The notes below the pieces were generated by a model, which saw only the letters and a list, made by a program, of their open reading frames with translations, ran no database searches and was not told where the DNA came from. A stretch of 64,000 nt of DNA from a bacterium (GTDB lineage Bacteria; Armatimonadota; UBA5829): NCBI GenBank assembly GCA_021371935.1, contig JAJFVF010000004.1, positions 62,001-126,000 on the forward strand, in the 5' to 3' direction. The first letter of the stretch is position 1. Every line of letters starts with the position of its first letter. The translations under genes and the position numbers were made by a program. Shown piece after piece: positions 38,123 to 64,000 of the stretch.

Positions 38123-38641
38123 TTATGACCAGCTTATCTTGTTTGTTGGCCGCGCCTTTCGGATCAGACTTCCACCATCAATGTAGCACCAAGCAGACTG
38201 CACAACACTGCCGGAAGTCATTACCGGAACCAGCACACGACGATATATGCAGGATTGCCCAAGACGGAAACCCTCAAGCTGATCAATCTTGGGTAGCGAT
38301 TGGCATGGGTCGGGAAAGGTTACCAGTTCGCCGTATATCATCTGCCAGGATGCTTTTTCACAGATAGCATCTGAAGTCCTATCCGAGAAGCGTTCCTGTG
38401 TTGCGACATCCGCCAAAGGATCCGATGTTCCGACAGCAATAATGCAGCTATCAGGCACCTGCAGAACCGGGATTCGTGATGGCAGTTCATAAAGCCGCCC
38501 TTGCACGACGGCCTCTTCTATACTGAGCGCAGTCTGGCAAAACCTGTCGTGGTTCCAATACCCCCGTTTGAGTGTACCGTATACAAATATCGAAAGTGTG
38601 CCTGTGCCAACCGAAATCTGATCATTATTAGTTTGTTTCAT
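38123..38641 (-). CDS. Gamma-glutamylcyclotransferase-like protein (GGCT/AIG2 family)
   Basis: This 172-residue protein has the family signature FVYGTLKRGYWNHDRF (residues about 19-34) for the oxyanion/glycine loop, and a catalytic Glu candidate in DQLEGFRLG. GGCT enzymes split gamma-glutamyl amides to 5-oxoproline and a free amine. In amidoligase operons they are thought to remove or recycle the gamma-glutamyl groups. ATG 38641 has GGAGGT 5 nt upstream. It follows the glutamine amidotransferase gene by 52 nt. The substrate is not known. Confidence 0.8.
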   Translation of the reverse strand: MKQTNNDQISVGTGTLSIFVYGTLKRGYWNHDRFCQTALSIEEAVVQGRLYELPSRIPVLQVPDSCIIAVGTSDPLADVATQERFSDRTSDAICEKASWQMIYGELVTFPDPCQSLPKIDQLEGFRLGQSCIYRRVLVPVMTSGSVVQSAWCYIDGGSLIRKARPTNKISWS

Positions 38642-38693
38642 ACTTACCTCCATATCTTATTGATCAGAGCGGATCTTCGTCCAACCGAGCTTG

Positions 38694-39485
38694 TTAGCCA
38701 GCGAAGCGTTGGAAACCCGAACGCCCTCTGCCAGCCAGTCTGAATGGCTGAGATGCAAATTTTGGAAGACTATCGCAATCGAGAGTCATTAGACTCATTG
38801 CTTGTGTTGGTATCTCCTGCCAGCCGGTATCAGATTGAAGAACGACATCGAGATGTGCAGGGTCAGATGCATAAATCATTACGTTGTGCTCCGGGTGGTA
38901 TCGAAATTCCAAAGGCTTGTTGCCTTTGATGACAATCACATTCTTCGGATCGAGCTTCGACGCCATTACCGCACTTATCAGCCCTCGACAAAGTGCAAGA
39001 CGCTTCTTGAACTCAATAAGGTCTATTCGTCCTTCGTTCAATGTGGCATCAGCCATTCTGAAGATGACCTCGCTGTCCACTTCAGCGAAACGAGGTAGAT
39101 CGAAGCGCATAAACAGATCGTCCGCATTGAGGATAGTGCCGTTGTGTGTTCCTAGAATCGCTCCGGCTCGAATTGGATGCGCGTTTGCGAGCACATTTAC
39201 ATCGCCACGGGTTGGCCAGCGAGTATGTCCGGCGAGCCACGTCGTTGCATTGTCGACCTCGGATATCACTTCGATAAACTCCTTTTCTTTGATAAACCTG
39301 GTCGCCGACAGTGGACGCTTGAAAATAGAGTGGCTACCGTTGTCTTTGAGCCAACTGATGCCGGTCGCGTAAGGACCACACTTCTCATTCAGGAGCAGTA
39401 AAAACATGAACAGCCACTTCAGATAGCTGCGTTCCTCCGGCTGCCTCTCCTTCGTGCCAAAAATCACTCCAAGTTGGCCACACAT
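38694..39485 (-). CDS. Class II glutamine amidotransferase domain protein
   Basis: This 263-residue Ntn-hydrolase starts with MCGQLGVIFG, so Cys2 becomes the N-terminal nucleophile after Met removal. GHTRWPTRGDVNVLANAHPI and GAILGTHNGTILNADDL are the standard glutaminase landmarks (as in PurF, GlmS and AsnB). There is no synthetase domain, so ammonia from glutamine would go to a partner, most likely the amidoligase in the same operon, or the enzyme may hydrolyse glutamyl amides itself. Its ATG shares one base with the TGA of the DUF5049 gene (TGATG), so the two are translationally coupled. Confidence 0.85.
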   Translation of the reverse strand: MCGQLGVIFGTKERQPEERSYLKWLFMFLLLLNEKCGPYATGISWLKDNGSHSIFKRPLSATRFIKEKEFIEVISEVDNATTWLAGHTRWPTRGDVNVLANAHPIRAGAILGTHNGTILNADDLFMRFDLPRFAEVDSEVIFRMADATLNEGRIDLIEFKKRLALCRGLISAVMASKLDPKNVIVIKGNKPLEFRYHPEHNVMIYASDPAHLDVVLQSDTGWQEIPTQAMSLMTLDCDSLPKFASQPFRLAGRGRSGFQRFAG

Positions 39486-39703
39486 CAGATATCACCTCCC
39501 TCAACTTCAAAGCCCGTGAATATACCGAGCCTGTATAAGTCCGGATTATCCTCCATCCAGACAATGGTCTCGAAATACTCCATATCAAAGGCCAATTTCT
39601 GCACCATCGGAGCATCGAACATGTTGGTCTTGCCTGATGCTCGGACTGCCTCGATGCCTCGCCATACCGACTCAGGAATCTTGACAGAACTAGTGTGTTC
39701 CAT
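39485..39703 (-). CDS. DUF5049 family small protein
   Basis: This 72-residue protein contains SSVKIPESVWRGIEAVRASG, TNMFDAPMVQKLAFDM and NPDLYRLGIFTGF, the pattern of DUF5049, a small family seen in phages and mobile DNA and often encoded beside amidoligases. The start at 39703 has GGAGG 7 nt upstream and lies one base after the amidoligase stop; the longer open frame is the shadow of that gene. It may be a peptide substrate or a partner of the amidoligase, although no conserved C-terminal acceptor motif is evident. Function unknown. Confidence 0.75.
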   Translation of the reverse strand: MEHTSSVKIPESVWRGIEAVRASGKTNMFDAPMVQKLAFDMEYFETIVWMEDNPDLYRLGIFTGFEVEGGDI

Positions 39704-39704
39704 G

Positions 39705-40634
39705 TCAAACCTCCGCAGGCTCCCGGCTTTCGCCGGGTTGATTCTTGGGTTTCGGTCTGCCTCTTTTGAACGCGGCGTCGCCGGGCATCGCATGCAAGAG
39801 GTGCATTCTAGCGGTCTTGAATTCGTCTCCGTTCAAACCCAGGTGAATGAGGAAAATCCTGAAGTCGTATTTAGCTGAGTTCGGGTCGAACTCTCGTTTT
39901 CGGCTGGAGGCTGCGCGGCTGTTAAGCGCCTTGGCTGCTATGGCAAGCACGAATTGGACGGCGGCTTTCACCTTGCCGGCATGCAGTGTCGCCTCAAACA
40001 TTCTGAACTCAACGGTCCCTCTATACCAGACGTTGTGCAAGTTCAGGCAGTTGTAACGAGTATTGTCATAATGAGTAGGACAGGTGTTCAGGTGGCCATA
40101 CCACAGGCGATTGACCTGCTCAAGCGTCCTAGGGCGGCTGTGTTCAAGCTTTGCTATGAACTCGGCGCTGATAGGTTTCGTATACTGATGCAGTCGCCGC
40201 TCGCTTACGCCAAGAGCTGTCAGAATGAGTGGCTCCTGTTTAAACATTATCTTCGCGAGGTTTGCCAGCGTCTTGCCAGTAAATGCACTCGAATCAGCAT
40301 GGATATGCATTCCGCAGTTCTGGTCAACTCGCAGGCCGCATTTGCGCAGCGCACGAACCACTTCCTGCAGCACTGGCAGGTCTTCGTAACTTAGTACCGG
40401 GCTTACTACTTCTGCACGCAGGTTGGAAGCTACACTCGTAAGCGAGGCATCGGCAACGACTTTCCATATTCTGCTGTGTGCATCTTTAACTTCCCATGGG
40501 TCGTAGCTGCTCGGACTTGCCACATGGCTGACTTCTCCGCCTACCACCGACTGGATGGCTTTAGCAGCCGTTTCGCGCGTTTTGCCTATTGTTTCAATCT
40601 CAACACCGAACTTCAGGTCTCTTAGATCAGTCAC
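39705..40634 (-). CDS. Putative amidoligase (glutamine-synthetase-like COOH-NH2 ligase)
   Basis: This 309-residue protein belongs to the putative amidoligase family (PF12224 type). [19 protein letters not shown] (9-27) carries the metal-binding Glu pair, [17 protein letters not shown] the His segment, and [18 protein letters not shown] the late Glu/Arg motif. The family is related to glutamine synthetase and is predicted to form amide bonds between a carboxylate and an amine using ATP, possibly on peptides or proteins. The GTG start has GAGGA about 7 nt upstream. With DUF5049, a class II amidotransferase and GGCT it makes a four-gene operon predicted for such ligases by comparative genomics. 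The C-terminus is basic and Pro-rich. Confidence 0.85.
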
Positions 40635-57286: not shown

Positions 57287-57621
57287 AACTGCACCTCCCG
57301 AATTACCACAATGGTCTTTCCGAGCAGGCGTGCATGCGCAATTTCCCGTCGCATACCATCCGAGATACCGTTACCGATATAAATCCAGACCTCGTCACAG
57401 GCTTCCATGAATCGCAACCCCAGCGAGATGCCTAGATTACGCTGGACCGGATCGCTCTCGTCCAGAAACTGCATGTAAAGAAGATGTGGGGCTAGAGGCG
57501 CACAGCCAGCTTCCACAGCTATTCGGCAGAGTGTCTGAGCAATCTCGACATTGTGTTCGATATCGGTGGCATATCGGCTGCAGATGAATACTCGTTTTAT
57601 GGTGGACTCACATGGTCTCAT
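57271..57621 (-). CDS. DUF4406/DUF7768-type nucleoside deoxyribosyltransferase-like protein
   Basis: This 116-residue protein reads RVFICSRYATDIEHNVEIAQ, PLAPHLLYMQFLDESDPVQR, LRFMEACDEVWIYI and EIAHARLLGKTIVV, the fold of the nucleoside 2-deoxyribosyltransferase-like family (DUF4406, DUF7768) common in phages. Key residues SRY, P-H-L and the D-E pair are kept. The start chosen (57621) overlaps the tape measure stop by 14 nt; the longer frame upstream is shadow. An enzyme between tape measure and tube-terminator genes is odd, since it is not a tail part. It may act on nucleotides or ADP-ribose signals. Confidence 0.7.
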   Translation of the reverse strand: MRPCESTIKRVFICSRYATDIEHNVEIAQTLCRIAVEAGCAPLAPHLLYMQFLDESDPVQRNLGISLGLRFMEACDEVWIYIGNGISDGMRREIAHARLLGKTIVVIREVQFCAKT

Positions 57622-60600
57622 AGTTCTTGATCTTCTGCTCCCGCATATCTTTGTAAACGGCTCGTGCAATCTGCCGACCATCGAGCTTCGTTGTAACATC
57701 CACCTCAATTGGCCGGTCAGAGAGACCATCAAGTTTCACCAATATTGCTTCAAGGAGCGGTCGCAGCTCTTCAGACCGGGCAGTAACACCAGCGATCTGC
57801 TCAGACGCAAGTGTGCCGCGTGTGACAGCCAACAACCGCGATCTCTCGACAGTTTGACCGACATGTTCAACAGGAGCAATACCAGGCACGGCACCTGCAA
57901 CCACCGGCGTCAAGGCCAGAGTCGCCGCAAGTGCGCTTGTGGGTAGACCAACGCTCATAAGGTTTCGAGCCGTTCCCAAGCTACGATGAAGAGCGCGTGC
58001 TGGCAGCTCAGAGGCACGAGTGATACCGGCGCTGAATGCCTCCAGCATCGCAGCGCCACTTCGGGTAAGTGTTGAGAGTGGGCCTTCCTGCGCATCTGAA
58101 AACGGCAATAACCTTCTGAGTCGTGAAAGCGCCGATCTTGCCGCTTCATATGGAGCAGCAACAGCCGAGCGGATACCACTCGCGATGGTAGTCATCACGG
58201 ATCGTCCACTCTGGAACGCAGAGGATATCAAGCTGGATGAACTGGAGAGAATATAGGAGAATGCATTTGATGCCGCACCTCGAACAACCGACCATGCAGA
58301 TGATGCTCCGCTTGCGAGGGCAGTAAACGGCGCTCGCAGCCAGCCCGCAGCATTCGATGCCATTAACGTTATACTCGACCACGCGGACGCCGCGGATCCA
58401 CGAACGCGTGACCATGTGGATCCGGCGATGCTACCTATCTGTGAAAATGCGCTGGAGACGGTGGAGACAAGACCCGCCCCAAGAGCACGCATCTCATCCC
58501 AAACCCAGTTTGTGGCATTAAGCATGCTTCTGAACACAGTGCTCAGAACCTGTCCGGGAAGTGAGATTAGTGACAGCATGCCCTGAGCAAGTGTGCGCAG
58601 GATGGCTGCACCGGAAGCTGTGAGAGTCGAAAGCGGTCCCTCCTGAGCATCCGAGAATGGAAGAAGTCTTCTAAGCCACCCCAGTGCGCGTTTCATTACA
58701 TCGAACGGATATATCACTGCCGACCAAATTCCACGACCAAGCGTAATGAGTATTTGCTTCCCAGCCTCGGTCAAATTTATTCGCCCCGAGACGAGCGAGC
58801 GAATTGTGCTCAAAACTTTGCTGATCGTAGTGACCACCGGCAGACTCTGGAATGCTGAAAGTAGCGTCGTTCCTGCCGACCTAAAAAATCCACCGAAGCC
58901 GGAAAACAGATTCCGCAGCCAATTCCACGTTGAAGATGCTATATCGCGTATCCATAGAAACGGCGTGGACAGAAAACCGAATATCGCACTGCCTATTGTC
59001 TTCAGTCCATCCACCACTGAGATGTCGCCGGTAATCATCCGCCAGACTGTATACGCAACGCGGCCCACTGTAAGTAGTGCCTGAATCAGCATTCTTAGAG
59101 GTAAATAAAAGCGATATACATAAGGAGCAGCAGCAACAAAGGCTGTGATTATGACTTTACCGAACCACACAGCAGCCTGGACGACCGCTGCGATAATCCG
59201 AATGACCCACGAGAGCGGATAGACAATAAACTTGATGATATATGCCGCCACCTGCGCAATGATGCCGAGAACAGTGCCGAGCGTCTGGCCGAAACTTTTG
59301 AACGAAGATGCATCAACTGCAGTTGTCGCCAGTCCGAATGCTGCAAAAATCGAACCGAGTGCCTTACCCAACTCGCCGAAAGCTCCCATCAGCGCGCGCA
59401 CCGCAGGCTCAAGGATCGACCGTATCTTGTCGAAGACCGATGAGAACGCCTGCCACAGCCCTGACAGAAACTGTCGCACCCGGTAGTAGACCTGGAACAC
59501 AGTAGTGACGAACTTCATGAGGCCTGCTGCCTGCAGCTTCTGGGCAAGCTCTGCCGACATCTGGCCTGACCCGCCTCGAATCGAACTGATGAGCGCCCAT
59601 ACTCCTTGAAAGGCAAGTTTTGTACGGTTCCATGCTCCCATCACCACATCCCGTATCCCGGCAAAGTTCGTTTCCCATGCACGTTTAAGAAGCACTACCG
59701 CAATTACGACTGCGGCTATCACGGCGACCACCGGCCAGAAGTAAGCTGAAACCGTCGATCCGACTCCAGCAAGCATCGGCCCCATTGCCACAAGCCCAGC
59801 CTTAAGCGCCGGTAAGACTATCCCTATTGTGCCAATGGCAGAAACAACTGCACCAACCACGACAAGTATTGCACCCAGCGCGGCACATAAAGTGAGGACC
59901 TTTCGAGTGATATCCGGCATGCTTTTCGCCATGCTTTGAAGATGCAGAATGAAACGGGAGAACATTTGAAAAAGAGGGATCACCACAGGCAGCATCGTTC
60001 GACCGAGTATTTCGAAAAGATTGGTAAGCTGCTGTTTTACAAGCCCGTATTGCGAGCCTATATCCTGGTTCATAGCTTTAGCCATTTGCTCGGTAGTCAC
60101 GGTGCCTGACTTCATGGCCTGCTCGACGCTCTTGATGTTGCCTTCTAGCTGATCCATTCCCATAGACATCTGCAGCAGGAATCGCACTGCCTCGTCTGAA
60201 CCAAATGCTTTTTTGAGCTTCACCTGCGCGGCGGCCTGGGAAAGATCCGGAAAGCCGCGCTTCACTTCCTGAAGGATCGGGAGAATGCCCTTAAGTCTGC
60301 CGCTCGTATCCACGAATGACAGGCCAAGTTCGTCACCGGCCTCGGCAACCTTTAGCATGAATGCCTTGTAAAGCGTGCCTGCCTCGGAGCCGGGCATAGT
60401 TGTCTGAAGCTGGCCGAGGATTGCCATCTGCTCCTGCAGTGGCACGTTCGACGCAGCCGCAATCGCGCCGATGTTCTTTATTGCTTCCGCCATCTGTGGA
60501 CCTGTGGTCTTGAAAACACCTACCGTCTGGGAGAGCGCGCCGGAGAACATCTTCGCCCACTCGATGTCGGACATGTCCTTTGCAAGTGGCTTGAATATGC

Positions 60601-61081
60601 CGTAGGCAGTCGTGAATGTCTCGACCATCTCCTGGGTCGTTGCTTTGGTTGCTTTGGCGGTAAGAGCAGCCATCGCAGCGAATGTGCCGACCGCCTGATC
60701 TGAGAGGTTGGCAAGGGCCGATTTTACGTCATATGCAGCCGTAATGAACTCAGCCTTATTGGTTCCAGCCCACTGGTTCGTGAACGACTCAGCGGCGTCT
60801 TCCATCGCACGGAAGTCTTTAACGCCGACAGAGGCAAGTTCACCCAGGGCTGTCTGAGTTGCGACAGTCGATGCTACAAGACCTGTCGGTATTGCAAGCA
60901 GCGCCAGTCCCGCACCAACCATCGTTGTGCCTTTTTCAATAAGGCCAAGGTTGCGGGTCATGTTCAAACCAGCGGCTTCGACCGATGCATCCAGAGACTG
61001 CATCGACGACTGGACGCGAGTCGCGTTTTGAGTAAATGCGTCTTTGAGACTGACGATTATGCCGAGGCCGAGATCATTCAT
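57608..61081 (-). CDS. Tail tape measure protein
   Basis: This 1,157-residue protein has the TP901-type tape measure core: TTMVGAGLALLAIPTGLVAS, ALGELASVGVKDFRAMEDAA and AEAIKNIGAIAAASNVPLQE, then several membrane-like helices (KVLTLCAALGAILVVVGAVV and VVAVIAAVVIAVVLLKRAW) and a long helical remainder. Two C-terminal copies of RRLLPFSDAQEGPLSTL (about 790 and 1020) mark a duplication. The family rule of about 1.5 Angstrom per residue would give a tail near 170 nm (inference). Its ATG overlaps the stop of the frameshifted chaperone extension (ATGA). Confidence 0.88.
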   Translation of the reverse strand: MNDLGLGIIVSLKDAFTQNATRVQSSMQSLDASVEAAGLNMTRNLGLIEKGTTMVGAGLALLAIPTGLVASTVATQTALGELASVGVKDFRAMEDAAESFTNQWAGTNKAEFITAAYDVKSALANLSDQAVGTFAAMAALTAKATKATTQEMVETFTTAYGIFKPLAKDMSDIEWAKMFSGALSQTVGVFKTTGPQMAEAIKNIGAIAAASNVPLQEQMAILGQLQTTMPGSEAGTLYKAFMLKVAEAGDELGLSFVDTSGRLKGILPILQEVKRGFPDLSQAAAQVKLKKAFGSDEAVRFLLQMSMGMDQLEGNIKSVEQAMKSGTVTTEQMAKAMNQDIGSQYGLVKQQLTNLFEILGRTMLPVVIPLFQMFSRFILHLQSMAKSMPDITRKVLTLCAALGAILVVVGAVVSAIGTIGIVLPALKAGLVAMGPMLAGVGSTVSAYFWPVVAVIAAVVIAVVLLKRAWETNFAGIRDVVMGAWNRTKLAFQGVWALISSIRGGSGQMSAELAQKLQAAGLMKFVTTVFQVYYRVRQFLSGLWQAFSSVFDKIRSILEPAVRALMGAFGELGKALGSIFAAFGLATTAVDASSFKSFGQTLGTVLGIIAQVAAYIIKFIVYPLSWVIRIIAAVVQAAVWFGKVIITAFVAAAPYVYRFYLPLRMLIQALLTVGRVAYTVWRMITGDISVVDGLKTIGSAIFGFLSTPFLWIRDIASSTWNWLRNLFSGFGGFFRSAGTTLLSAFQSLPVVTTISKVLSTIRSLVSGRINLTEAGKQILITLGRGIWSAVIYPFDVMKRALGWLRRLLPFSDAQEGPLSTLTASGAAILRTLAQGMLSLISLPGQVLSTVFRSMLNATNWVWDEMRALGAGLVSTVSSAFSQIGSIAGSTWSRVRGSAASAWSSITLMASNAAGWLRAPFTALASGASSAWSVVRGAASNAFSYILSSSSSLISSAFQSGRSVMTTIASGIRSAVAAPYEAARSALSRLRRLLPFSDAQEGPLSTLTRSGAAMLEAFSAGITRASELPARALHRSLGTARNLMSVGLPTSALAATLALTPVVAGAVPGIAPVEHVGQTVERSRLLAVTRGTLASEQIAGVTARSEELRPLLEAILVKLDGLSDRPIEVDVTTKLDGRQIARAVYKDMREQKIKNYETM

Positions 61082-61247
61082 CGCTTATGCCTGTCCAATT
61101 CCTCTCGCTCGAAGTCGAGTTGCCGTTCAAGTGCATCGACGAAATCATGCCGCGTCCTGATCGGCAGCTTTGCGACCTCAGCATACTCCCAGTGCAGCCC
61201 TCCATAGGCGAGGAAGAAAACATCCTTCAGGAGCGAACTCCGGGGAA
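61078..61247 (-). CDS. Frameshift extension of the tail assembly chaperone
   Basis: This frame has no start codon of its own. It follows in the -1 frame from the slippery site in the upstream gene and gives 56 residues: IPRSSLLKDVFFLAYGGLHW, EYAEVAKLPIRTRHDFVDAL and ERQLDFEREELDRHKR. The AYGGLHWEYAEV segment is the kind of short W/Y helix seen in small proteins before tape measure genes in contractile tails. It ends at TGA 61080-61078, overlapping the tape measure start. Such extended chaperones bind the tape measure while the tube polymerises around it. Confidence 0.65.
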
Positions 61248-61904
61248 TAAAAAAGACGGTTCAGCCTCAAGTTTGGTATGAATACGTGCGCCGCAGGATT
61301 CACACTCGCACTCGATATTGGTGTCAATACCTGCGTCGACGCGAAGCATCTCAGCGCGCAGCGCGGTCCGATCCCGCATCGACATTTCGACAAGCGCTTT
61401 CTTGCTCGGAGCCGAGTCGTCTATCTCCAGAATACGAATGAGCATCGCAGCAGAAATGTTCGGCTCCTGCATCTGAGCCAGGCGCTTCTCCTTGTTGCCG
61501 TCGAGATGAACGAACTGCACTTTCCTGCCGGAGCTGGGCAGCGTGTATACAAACTCACGTGCTTCGCCATATGGCGTCACAGGCAGGTCAGTGAGGTTTA
61601 TGATGATGTGATTCTTTGCCCGACATGCCGTGTTCGAACAGACCAGATCGAGTTCGACTTCATCACCCAGCGACACTTGTCGAAGCCGCACAAGTGTAAA
61701 CAGCCGGTCGCCGGAAAGCATATTCAGCACATCACTCACACTCGGCTCCGAATTTTCGCCCAATCGCAGAATGCAGTTAGCAAGCACGCGGTTCACGGCG
61801 TCGCCGTTTCGGATAAGCCGCTGGTTGGTGAGCAGTTCTTCCTCCGCGCCGGTCATTTCCCTCAGCTCTATTTCAGGCCCGCTGGGTAGCTCAAACATAT
61901 ACAT
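61227..61904 (-). CDS. Tail assembly chaperone-like protein (gp51/gpG position)
   Basis: This 225-residue protein reads LPSGPEIELREMTGAEEELL, then NRVLANCILRLGENSEPSVS and DVLNMLSGDRLFTLVRLRQV, and carries two cysteine pairs (CSNTAC about 89-94 and CECESC about 199-204) that suggest a zinc ribbon, as in T4-like baseplate hub and tail chaperones. It sits between tube and tape measure genes, the fixed position of tail assembly chaperones. Near its 3' end it has an in-frame T TTT TTA slippery heptamer that would give a longer product. GGAG lies 7 nt before the ATG. Confidence 0.78.
   Translation of the reverse strand: MYMFELPSGPEIELREMTGAEEELLTNQRLIRNGDAVNRVLANCILRLGENSEPSVSDVLNMLSGDRLFTLVRLRQVSLGDEVELDLVCSNTACRAKNHIIINLTDLPVTPYGEAREFVYTLPSSGRKVQFVHLDGNKEKRLAQMQEPNISAAMLIRILEIDDSAPSKKALVEMSMRDRTALRAEMLRVDAGIDTNIECECESCGARIHTKLEAEPSFLFPGVRS
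61234..61254 (-). promoter_or_regulatory. Programmed -1 frameshift site T TTT TTA with downstream hairpin
   Basis: On the minus strand T TTT TTA spans 61254-61248 and is in register with the zero frame (TCT TTT TTA TTC). Six nucleotides later GGAG-TTCG-CTCC (61241-61230) can form a short tetraloop hairpin, the usual spacing for a stimulator. A -1 slip continues for 56 codons. The zero-frame stop is at 61229-61227. Programmed frameshifting at this place is conserved in tailed phages. Confidence 0.72.
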
Positions 61905-61913
61905 GTGCGTCTC

Positions 61914-62372
61914 CTAAATCCAGTATTGATAGCAGATCGTGATTTTCTCAATTGTGTTGTCGGAGCTTCCACCTTCAAGATCGTCATATTCAAGCGACTT
62001 CACCCACGCTCCGACAAGCGTCCATCTGCGCGTTTCGTTACCTGCACGATCATACCGAACGATGTCGATGTCGCGCATATACTCTTCCGGCAGCGCGCCG
62101 ACACCGGAGTTCACATCGGCCTGGATTCTCACCCAGTCACGTGCCGCTTCGTCAGATCCATCAGCGAGCACACCCTTCTCGAGAGTGACATCGCCAAACT
62201 TCATACGGCCCGCGACTTTCTGGTCGAACATCGAGCCAGCTGGAGCGAACGCCACTTCCTCAAACTCAGTCTTTGGCTCCTGACCTTTCTTAAAGAGAGC
62301 CACATCGAACCCGTTCACTTCGATGGCGAACTGCCAGTTCTGGTAAAGGCTCTGAGGCATCATCACTTCCAT
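61914..62372 (-). CDS. gp19-like tail tube protein
   Basis: This 152-residue protein reads YQNWQFAIEVNGFDVALFKK, GQEPKTEFEEVAFAPAGSMF and DQKVAGRMKFGDVTLEKGVL, then TRRWTLVGAWVKSLEYDDLE and EKITICYQYW. It is the T4 gp19-type tube fold (Hcp-like), with the KxGxVTLEKG-type strand and final ITICYQY strand. Hexamers stack inside the sheath to form the tube. GGAGG lies before the ATG. It follows the sheath gene by 11 nt. Confidence 0.9.
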   Translation of the reverse strand: MEVMMPQSLYQNWQFAIEVNGFDVALFKKGQEPKTEFEEVAFAPAGSMFDQKVAGRMKFGDVTLEKGVLADGSDEAARDWVRIQADVNSGVGALPEEYMRDIDIVRYDRAGNETRRWTLVGAWVKSLEYDDLEGGSSDNTIEKITICYQYWI

Positions 62373-62383
62373 GCGGCCACCTC

Positions 62384-64000
62384 CTAAAATATCTCACTGA
62401 AGTCCGCGCCGGTTGCGGTGAGGACGAAATTCAGTTCCACGAACTCAGCGGTCTTCGTAGGTTTCACGAACACCCGGCAGACCATCTGGTTCTGGTCTAT
62501 CATCTGCGCGGTGTTAGTCTCATCGTCACACTGCACTCTGAAGTCATAGAAACCGCCCTTGCTCTTGATGTTCGAAAGAAACGGAGTGATAAGGCGCACC
62601 AGCGCCCGCCATGTCTGCGAGTTGTTCGGCTCGAAGACTACGAAGCGCGACGACTGCGAAACCGCTTCTTCGACATACATCATCAGGCGGCGAACGTTGA
62701 TTCGGTCGAGCGCGGAAGACTGAGACTGGAGAGTCTTCTGCCCCCAAACATTAATGCCGGTATCTGGGAAGCTCGCTATTACATTAATGCCTTCGGAATA
62801 AAGAGTGTCTCGCTCACCGCGGTTGGTCTTGTAGGCAAGAGACAGCACATTGTAGATTCGCCCTCTATCGATTCCAGCAGGCGCATACCACACGTCCGTT
62901 TTCTGATCAGATCTGGCGATGCATCCGGCCACCGCTCCGGTCGGAGGAACAAGCTTGCTCTTTCTCGTGAGCGGATCTGAAATTTCAAGCCAGGGATAGT
63001 AGAGTGCTGCATAGGATGAATTGAATGCGGCATGGGTGTAGGTACCTTGACCTTTTCGGAAATCGATGACTTCAAGCGGCTCAAGATGGATCGGTGGTTC
63101 GGTGATGAATAGCAGGTCTTTGCGATTCTCAGCATAAGTGATCCCGCCAGCAATGACCTGCGCTGTCGTAACACCCGGTGCGAGCACGATATTCAGTGCA
63201 TCTATCTCGTCGAATGCATAGAAACCGGTGTGTTGGGATGCATCACCGATATAATCCGCATCGGCAAGGCCGCTGATTCCGTTATCACCAGCCGTCAGCG
63301 AGAATGCTCCTACGGCGGGTCTGTCCTGGGCAGCGTTTGATGCAACAGAAAGATCGTCGACTGTGATGAATTCCGACACCTCATTAACAACGATTTCCAC
63401 ATGATTCGACTTTGATTCGTCCATCGAAAGGTTCCTGAACACTTCAACAGTCTCGCCTTTATATCGGACGATAAGGTCGAACTCGTTTGCGGCATCCTGT
63501 GTGCTGTCAGTGACTTGAACAGAGAGCGCATCACCCCACGTACCCTCATTTATCGCGCTAACTTTCAATGTGTCCTGCGGATCCTGTCCACCGGCCAGAT
63601 GTGTAGATGCAGCGGGTGTAACCACGCCAGTATCCGTTGAGGACGCCTGAATCAACGCCGATGTACCGGCATGTGCAACAACTGCTGCTACTACCTGTGC
63701 GGTTGTGCTTGTCGTATCGCCAGTAGCGTTAGTCGCCAGATGAATAGTAATTGCCTGGCCAGTTACCTCGATTGAAAGCGGCGTATCGTTGCCGGATTTG
63801 ACAAGTGCGATTGTGATAGAATTGCCAGCCGCACCTGCAGCCTTTGTGGTCCAGAGGATTCTGTCTGTGCCAATGATGCCCGTGTTCAAACTGGCTGCGG
63901 CTGATCGCCGATTCTTTAGTGAAATGGTTGAGCATTTTGCAGTAAGCGTTGCCCGGTCATCAGGATCAGTGTAGTGCGCCACTCGGTTTACATAGAGGAC
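62384..64000 (-). CDS. Contractile tail sheath protein, N-terminus outside the window
   Basis: This frame is open to the right edge: before the GTG at 63982 it reads VLYVNR in the same frame, which continues naturally into VAHYTDPDDRATLTA, so the N-terminal part lies outside. Inside are an inserted beta domain (about the first 150 residues, Thr/Ala-rich, with a SIEVTGQAITIHLATNATGD strand), the core (ALNIVLAPGVTTAQVIAGGI, DFRKGQGTYTHAAFNSSYAA) and the C-terminal attachment region (DRINVRRLMMYVEEAVSQSS, RFVVFEPNNSQTWRALVRLI). These are hallmarks of myophage sheaths. The sheath contracts to drive the tube through the target envelope. Confidence 0.88.
   Translation of the reverse strand, partial: VLYVNRVAHYTDPDDRATLTAKCSTISLKNRRSAAASLNTGIIGTDRILWTTKAAGAAGNSITIALVKSGNDTPLSIEVTGQAITIHLATNATGDTTSTTAQVVAAVVAHAGTSALIQASSTDTGVVTPAASTHLAGGQDPQDTLKVSAINEGTWGDALSVQVTDSTQDAANEFDLIVRYKGETVEVFRNLSMDESKSNHVEIVVNEVSEFITVDDLSVASNAAQDRPAVGAFSLTAGDNGISGLADADYIGDASQHTGFYAFDEIDALNIVLAPGVTTAQVIAGGITYAENRKDLLFITEPPIHLEPLEVIDFRKGQGTYTHAAFNSSYAALYYPWLEISDPLTRKSKLVPPTGAVAGCIARSDQKTDVWYAPAGIDRGRIYNVLSLAYKTNRGERDTLYSEGINVIASFPDTGINVWGQKTLQSQSSALDRINVRRLMMYVEEAVSQSSRFVVFEPNNSQTWRALVRLITPFLSNIKSKGGFYDFRVQCDDETNTAQMIDQNQMVCRVFVKPTKTAEFVELNFVLTATGADFSEIF

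Follow-up and report, generated by a model that had tools for sequence, protein, structure and literature searches.

Does the gene between the tail tube and tape measure genes of this Armatimonadota contig encode one protein, or are a short and a long product made from a single start by a programmed -1 ribosomal frameshift? A sequence-only reading of the window (i.e. the whole 64,000-nucleotide stretch analysed here) had proposed the latter, describing a tail-chaperone frameshift at a T TTT TTA heptamer. The features on which the question turns are listed in Table 1. Our analysis favours a programmed -1 frameshift in a PF12322-family tail assembly chaperone gene, to which we assign a probability of about 93%; this assessment draws on a conserved signal, selection on the second frame, the lack of a second start, gene order, family membership and a predicted fold, all of them read from sequence.

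Table 1. Features of the chaperone locus, in window coordinates
Feature	Position	Strand	Remarks
Tail sheath gene (contractile tail)	62384-63982	minus	Phage_sheath_1C; PHROG 23, E 2.1e-72
Tail tube gene (T4 gp19 family)	61914-62372	minus	PF06841, E 3.5e-28
Zero-frame gene, short tail assembly chaperone (TAC-N)	61904-61227	minus	225 aa; PF12322 / PHROG 150
Shine-Dalgarno-like GAGG	61265-61268	minus	Candidate stimulator; spacing to the heptamer exactly 10 nt
Slippery heptamer T TTT TTA	61254-61248	minus	-1 register
Hairpin GGAG-TTCG-CTCC	61230-61241	minus	Present here, not conserved
Zero-frame stop TGA	61229-61227	minus	
-1 frame, putative C-terminal domain of the long chaperone (TAC-NC)	61078-61254	minus	58 codons from the heptamer, plus stop
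Tape measure protein gene	57608-61081	minus	1157 aa; PhageMin_Tail, 1.1e-24; PHROG 28, E 1.3e-62

The genes run in the order sheath-tube-chaperone-tape measure, the chaperone gene occupying the place between tube and tape measure genes that characterizes lambda G/GT-type loci. Because head, portal, terminase and replication genes, followed by a serine integrase, continue in the same direction beyond the window (by-eye reading of translations), the locus looks by eye like a complete temperate contractile-tailed prophage spanning roughly 41.5-102 kb in window coordinates. A contractile injection system was considered and was ruled out by the upstream portal, terminase, replication and serine integrase proteins recognized in the same by-eye reading. 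Just beyond the tail-fibre end of the prophage, three neighbouring genes (window 38123-40634, minus strand) resemble, by eye, a gamma-glutamylcyclotransferase, a class II glutamine amidotransferase and an amidoligase-like protein. Within the tape measure protein, the motif RRLLPFSDAQEGPLSTLT.SGAA occurs two times.

The heptamer lies in the register X XXY YYZ (codons TCT TTT TTA), as had been claimed, and is separated from the zero-frame stop by 18 nt, one base fewer than the 19 nt given previously; the zero-frame protein ends in ...LEAEPSFLFPGVRS*. Conservation of this arrangement was examined in 72 unique intact relatives from phage contigs and prophages of many phyla, the loci being drawn from viral contigs and from one genome per bacterial species. 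Record titles of the relatives named Armatimonadota, Desulfosarcina and other sulfate reducers, Anaerolineales, Ectothiorhodospira, Acidobacteriota, Planctomycetota and Halanaerobium. Two of the closest named homologs (83-84% identity) were in Armatimonadota assemblies, and within the host family the gene was present in four of 14 other genomes, each with T TTT TTA. Alignment of relatives, the check suggested in the sequence-only reading, found the slippery site and the -1 frame kept in the 72 unique sequences, with the heptamer in register as T TTT TTG (38 sequences), T TTT TTA (31) or T TTT TTC (3). The distance from the first heptamer base to the zero-frame stop was 25 nt in 67 relatives, 22 nt in four and 19 nt in one.

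Among the same 72 sequences, the first heptamer codon varied between Ala, Gly, Ser, Thr, Val and Asp, its final base being T in all. The Phe codon at the slip site was TTT without exception, as compared to 47 of the 166 Phe codons in the rest of the gene, and the third codon, when Leu, was always TTA or TTG, as compared to 83 of 738 Leu codons elsewhere. At background codon usage, the joint probability of T TTT TTN in all 27 clusters is about 1e-61, a figure that overstates independence because the relatives share ancestry and the clusters are not independent. These patterns indicate that, at the heptamer, selection is acting on the DNA word rather than on the peptide. One locus (L190, Hydrogenedentes, 5' of 4675) had lost the T heptamer and carried, in register and one codon closer to the gene start, C CCT TTC beside an intact -1 domain; the comparison identifies it as a natural swap of one slippery site for another. 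Loss of the heptamer with retention of both frames had been named beforehand as evidence against a frameshift, and L190 bears this substitute site. Otherwise, the T heptamer was missing only from the damaged locus L162 and from the distant loci L058, L163 and L164. Both chaperone frames of L162 (4001-4690) are broken, with an early stop and a deletion in the -1 domain, and this locus is either a decayed prophage or an assembly error.

Beyond the heptamer, the -1 frame continues for 56 codons (IPRSSLLKDVFFLAYGGLHW...RHKR), as previously described, to a TGA (61080-61078) that overlaps the tape measure ATG (61081-61079) as ATGA. Openness of this frame is, by itself, weak evidence, being expected by chance at 4-18%. 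Past the zero-frame stop, the -1 frame exhibited a dN/dS of 0.19 (pN/pS 0.37) over 27 clusters, as compared to dN/dS values of 1.46-1.57, with ratios above 1.3, for the two remaining frames of this DNA, indicating that the -1 frame is evolving under protein-level selection and agreeing with the earlier description of a credible protein. At the core of the domain is a nearly invariant DAFFLAYGGLHW, and the predicted model of the domain (pLDDT 70, moderate confidence) contains a long C-terminal helix. Searches with the 58-aa C-terminal domain produced no Pfam, PHROG or NCBIfam family and no tblastn match among 50,697 phage records, and the PHROG 150 profile, when run on the window fusion, did not reach into it; gene callers would easily miss the domain because it is without a start codon. 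DUF6760 (PF20546) was rejected as the identity of the domain, with a score of 13.4 bits against a gathering cut-off of 27; only four of 27 members matched it at E<=1, and its sole match in the host genome was weak and lay elsewhere. No paper on DUF6760 was found in the literature. In two loci (L008 and L011), an extra stretch, possibly another small gene, is present between the -1 stop and the tape measure ATG.

The hairpin starting 6 nt past the heptamer is present in the window as the sequence-only reading had reported, but it is not conserved and a stimulatory role is unsupported: all four pairs were retained in only 4 of the 27 clusters, and alifold energies (z of -1.6 and +0.4) were not clearly better than those of column-shuffled controls. 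The hairpin was rejected as a stimulator on both counts. A GAGG or GGAGG ending exactly 10 nt upstream of the heptamer was found in 66 of 72 relatives, in most cases as GGAGG, and the 3' end of the host 16S rRNA bears the matching CACCTCCTTT. The Glu codon within this element was GAG in 26 of 27 clusters, the highest proportion among 14 conserved Glu positions; the Glu two codons later was GAG in only six. The element follows in part from a conserved Leu-Glu-Ala. Its position and conservation make the GAGG a candidate for, and probably the site of, frameshift stimulation. At E. coli dnaX, the heptamer A AAA AAG is accompanied by a strong downstream stem-loop and by a Shine-Dalgarno-like stimulator ~10 nt upstream. 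The present locus resembles dnaX in having a Shine-Dalgarno-like element ~10 nt before the heptamer and differs from it in lacking a conserved stem-loop.

Expression of the second frame as a separate small gene, through re-initiation or a non-canonical start coupled to the upstream stop, would account for the ATGA overlap with the tape measure gene, which is typical of coupled genes, for the upstream GAGG and for the annotation of part of this region as a separate small ORF in some distant phages. Start codons are, however, nearly absent, as the sequence-only reading had noted for the window. The first ATG, GTG or TTG of the -1 frame is at codon 52, and such codons occur within the first 12 -1 codons of only five of the 72 relatives, mostly at differing positions, making separate initiation very unlikely; a second frame with its own start had been regarded in advance as an observation that would speak against a frameshift. 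The slip site is followed by ATT, GTT or CTT, depending on the relative, and so no alternative start has been kept. The GAGG is ~16 nt from this post-slip codon, a spacing that is too far for initiation from a Shine-Dalgarno sequence. Nor would a separate gene preserve a slippery heptamer across amino acid changes in the upstream codon, and we consider this explanation highly improbable.

Transcriptional slippage on the run of six T, generating mRNAs with altered numbers of U for translation in the second frame, is held to be just as improbable. The site is indeed a homopolymeric T run, but six T make a short run for polymerase slippage, which usually needs eight or more. The whole heptamer, including the A, G or C after the six T, is moreover kept in the ribosomal register, and the C CCT TTC of L190 is slippery for tandem tRNAs and contains no long homopolymer. 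That the gene encodes one full-length protein, with the -1 step arising from a sequencing or assembly error or from decay, finds a parallel in the broken frames of L162, but is refuted by recurrence of the same frame relation in 72 unique sequences, which come from numerous independent genomes and metagenomes, and deserves almost no credence. The conserved heptamer, register and -1 protein, with the near absence of second-frame starts, argue instead for the tail-chaperone frameshift as originally proposed; neither of the two observations named beforehand as counting against it was made.

The zero-frame protein matched PF12322 (T4_baseplate; E 7.6e-13; 49.1 bits against a gathering cut-off of 24.5; residues 3-214) and PHROG 150 (E 8.5e-18). 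Four Cys residues, arranged as the zinc-ribbon-like pairs C89-x4-C94 and C201-x2-C204, were invariant across 31 sequences and form a putative zinc site; with the PF12322 membership, they uphold the earlier description of a zinc-ribbon type chaperone, zinc binding being putative. An AlphaFold model of this protein (pLDDT 93) resembles many predicted T4-type baseplate-hub proteins. The best solved match of the model was the HK97 tail assembly chaperone (2ob9), with an absolutely weak Z of 4.8 over 88 residues; the next unrelated chain after 2ob9 had a Z of 2.5; Foldseek E was 2.2. A search of solved structures by sequence gave no match.

With a programmed -1 frameshift, the majority of ribosomes would terminate at 61227, yielding the short chaperone of 225 aa, while a minority, whose P and A sites contain the tRNAs paired with TTT TTA (Phe, Leu), would slip back one base onto TTT TTT. 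These slipped ribosomes would read 56 further codons to give a long form of 275 aa (...EPSFL-IPRSSLLKDVFFLAYGGLHW...). The GAGG 10 nt upstream, and not the downstream hairpin, would probably pause or pull back the ribosome in a dnaX-like manner. By analogy with lambda G/GT and P2 E/E+E', the short form would coat the tape measure protein, and tail tube subunits may be recruited by the C-terminal domain of the long form; neither form would be expected in the finished tail. We infer slippage itself, its rate, the part played by the GAGG in stimulation and what each of the two products does.

Production of P2 E/E+E' involves a -1 frameshift at T TTT TTG for which no downstream structure is needed (PMC3091744). 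The present locus is like P2 in having a -1 site of the form T TTT TT(N) between the tube and tape measure genes of a contractile tail, but P2 E is a protein of 91 aa whereas the short form here is a 225-aa PF12322 protein with four conserved Cys. At the present locus, a conserved GAGG is found 10 nt upstream of the heptamer. The slippery site of lambda is G GGA AAG. Short and long lambda chaperones (G/GT) share one start and are produced by a -1 frameshift immediately ahead of the tape measure gene (PMC5009743), an arrangement shared by the proposed short and long forms of the present locus, also directly before the tape measure gene. Unlike lambda, whose tail is non-contractile, the proteins here belong to other families by sequence.

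A further comparison is with T4, whose gp26/gp51 family includes the zero-frame protein. Matches to PF12322 were obtained for gp26 (208 aa; 8.8e-64) and for gp51 (3.9e-52), the latter consisting of a gp26-like domain and a 48-residue C-terminal extension, and these two proteins mirror the short and long forms. T4 differs in having two separate genes, 26 and 51, on opposite strands (L204 303-1729 = T4 115802-117228), in place of one gene with a frameshift. Comparison of the gp51 C-terminal extension with the -1 domain gave a score of 13, not significant and within the shuffled range. Vladimirov et al. reportedly identified the T4-like tail chaperone genes in 2022 and are said to have made the case that T4-like phages use a mechanism other than frameshifting. 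The standard example of a phage without the tail-chaperone frameshift is T4 (PMC5009743), and the Adele paper cites Vladimirov et al. 2022 for poly-T signals in T4-like chaperone genes (PMC12846349).

Second-frame domains starting at the same Phe-(Phe) site were also detected in the PF12322/PHROG 150 genes of SP-15, LIS04, GXN1, immuto, Mel-JY01, Atu_ph07 and RAS14 (the Mel-JY01 and Atu_ph07 genes by tblastn only), and at a Phe-rich site in L163, in L164 and in two uncultured jumbo phages. In SP-15, LIS04 and immuto, the annotation places the gene immediately ahead of the tape measure gene. The second frame is -1, at T TTT TTC/T, in Atu_ph07, RAS14 and LR756511, and +1 (or -2) in SP-15, LIS04, GXN1, immuto, Mel-JY01, LR756508, L163 and L164, where the sites are TTT TTT C, TTT C or similar. 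Distant PF12322 loci with a +1 (or -2) second domain comprise L196, L197, L198, L199, L200, L206, L163 and L164. For the +1 group, movement of Phe-tRNA by +1, from UUU to UUU/UUC, would fit better than movement by -2. Comparison of the -1 domain with the distant second-frame domains by hhalign gave a probability of 96% and a score of 45, as compared to <=13 in 60 column shuffles, indicating that these domains are related.

The frameshift trick of tail chaperones is already known in phages; the present locus adds a new and very well conserved case, set in the PF12322 family. Across many phage lineages, PF12322 'baseplate hub' genes look, from their sequences, like frameshifted tail assembly chaperones, and a large PF12322 set with a conserved slippery site supports the reading of this family as tail assembly chaperones. 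A wider proposal, to which we would give slightly less than even odds, is that the family is frameshifted throughout the contractile phages carrying it, that slippage has changed repeatedly between -1 and +1 at the same Phe site, and that the two-gene layout of T4 (26 and 51) is derived, having replaced an ancestral frameshift. The natural series of -1 site, +1 site and two genes could be used to study how the proportion of short to long chaperone is set in phages. The T4 gp26/gp51 family continues to carry the annotation 'baseplate hub', and the present reading offers a corrected annotation for many prophages. Records of the distant phages describe the gene as 'baseplate hub', 'baseplate protein' or 'hypothetical', with no annotated frameshift. 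The LIS04 record has a 230-nt unannotated gap at the second-frame domain.
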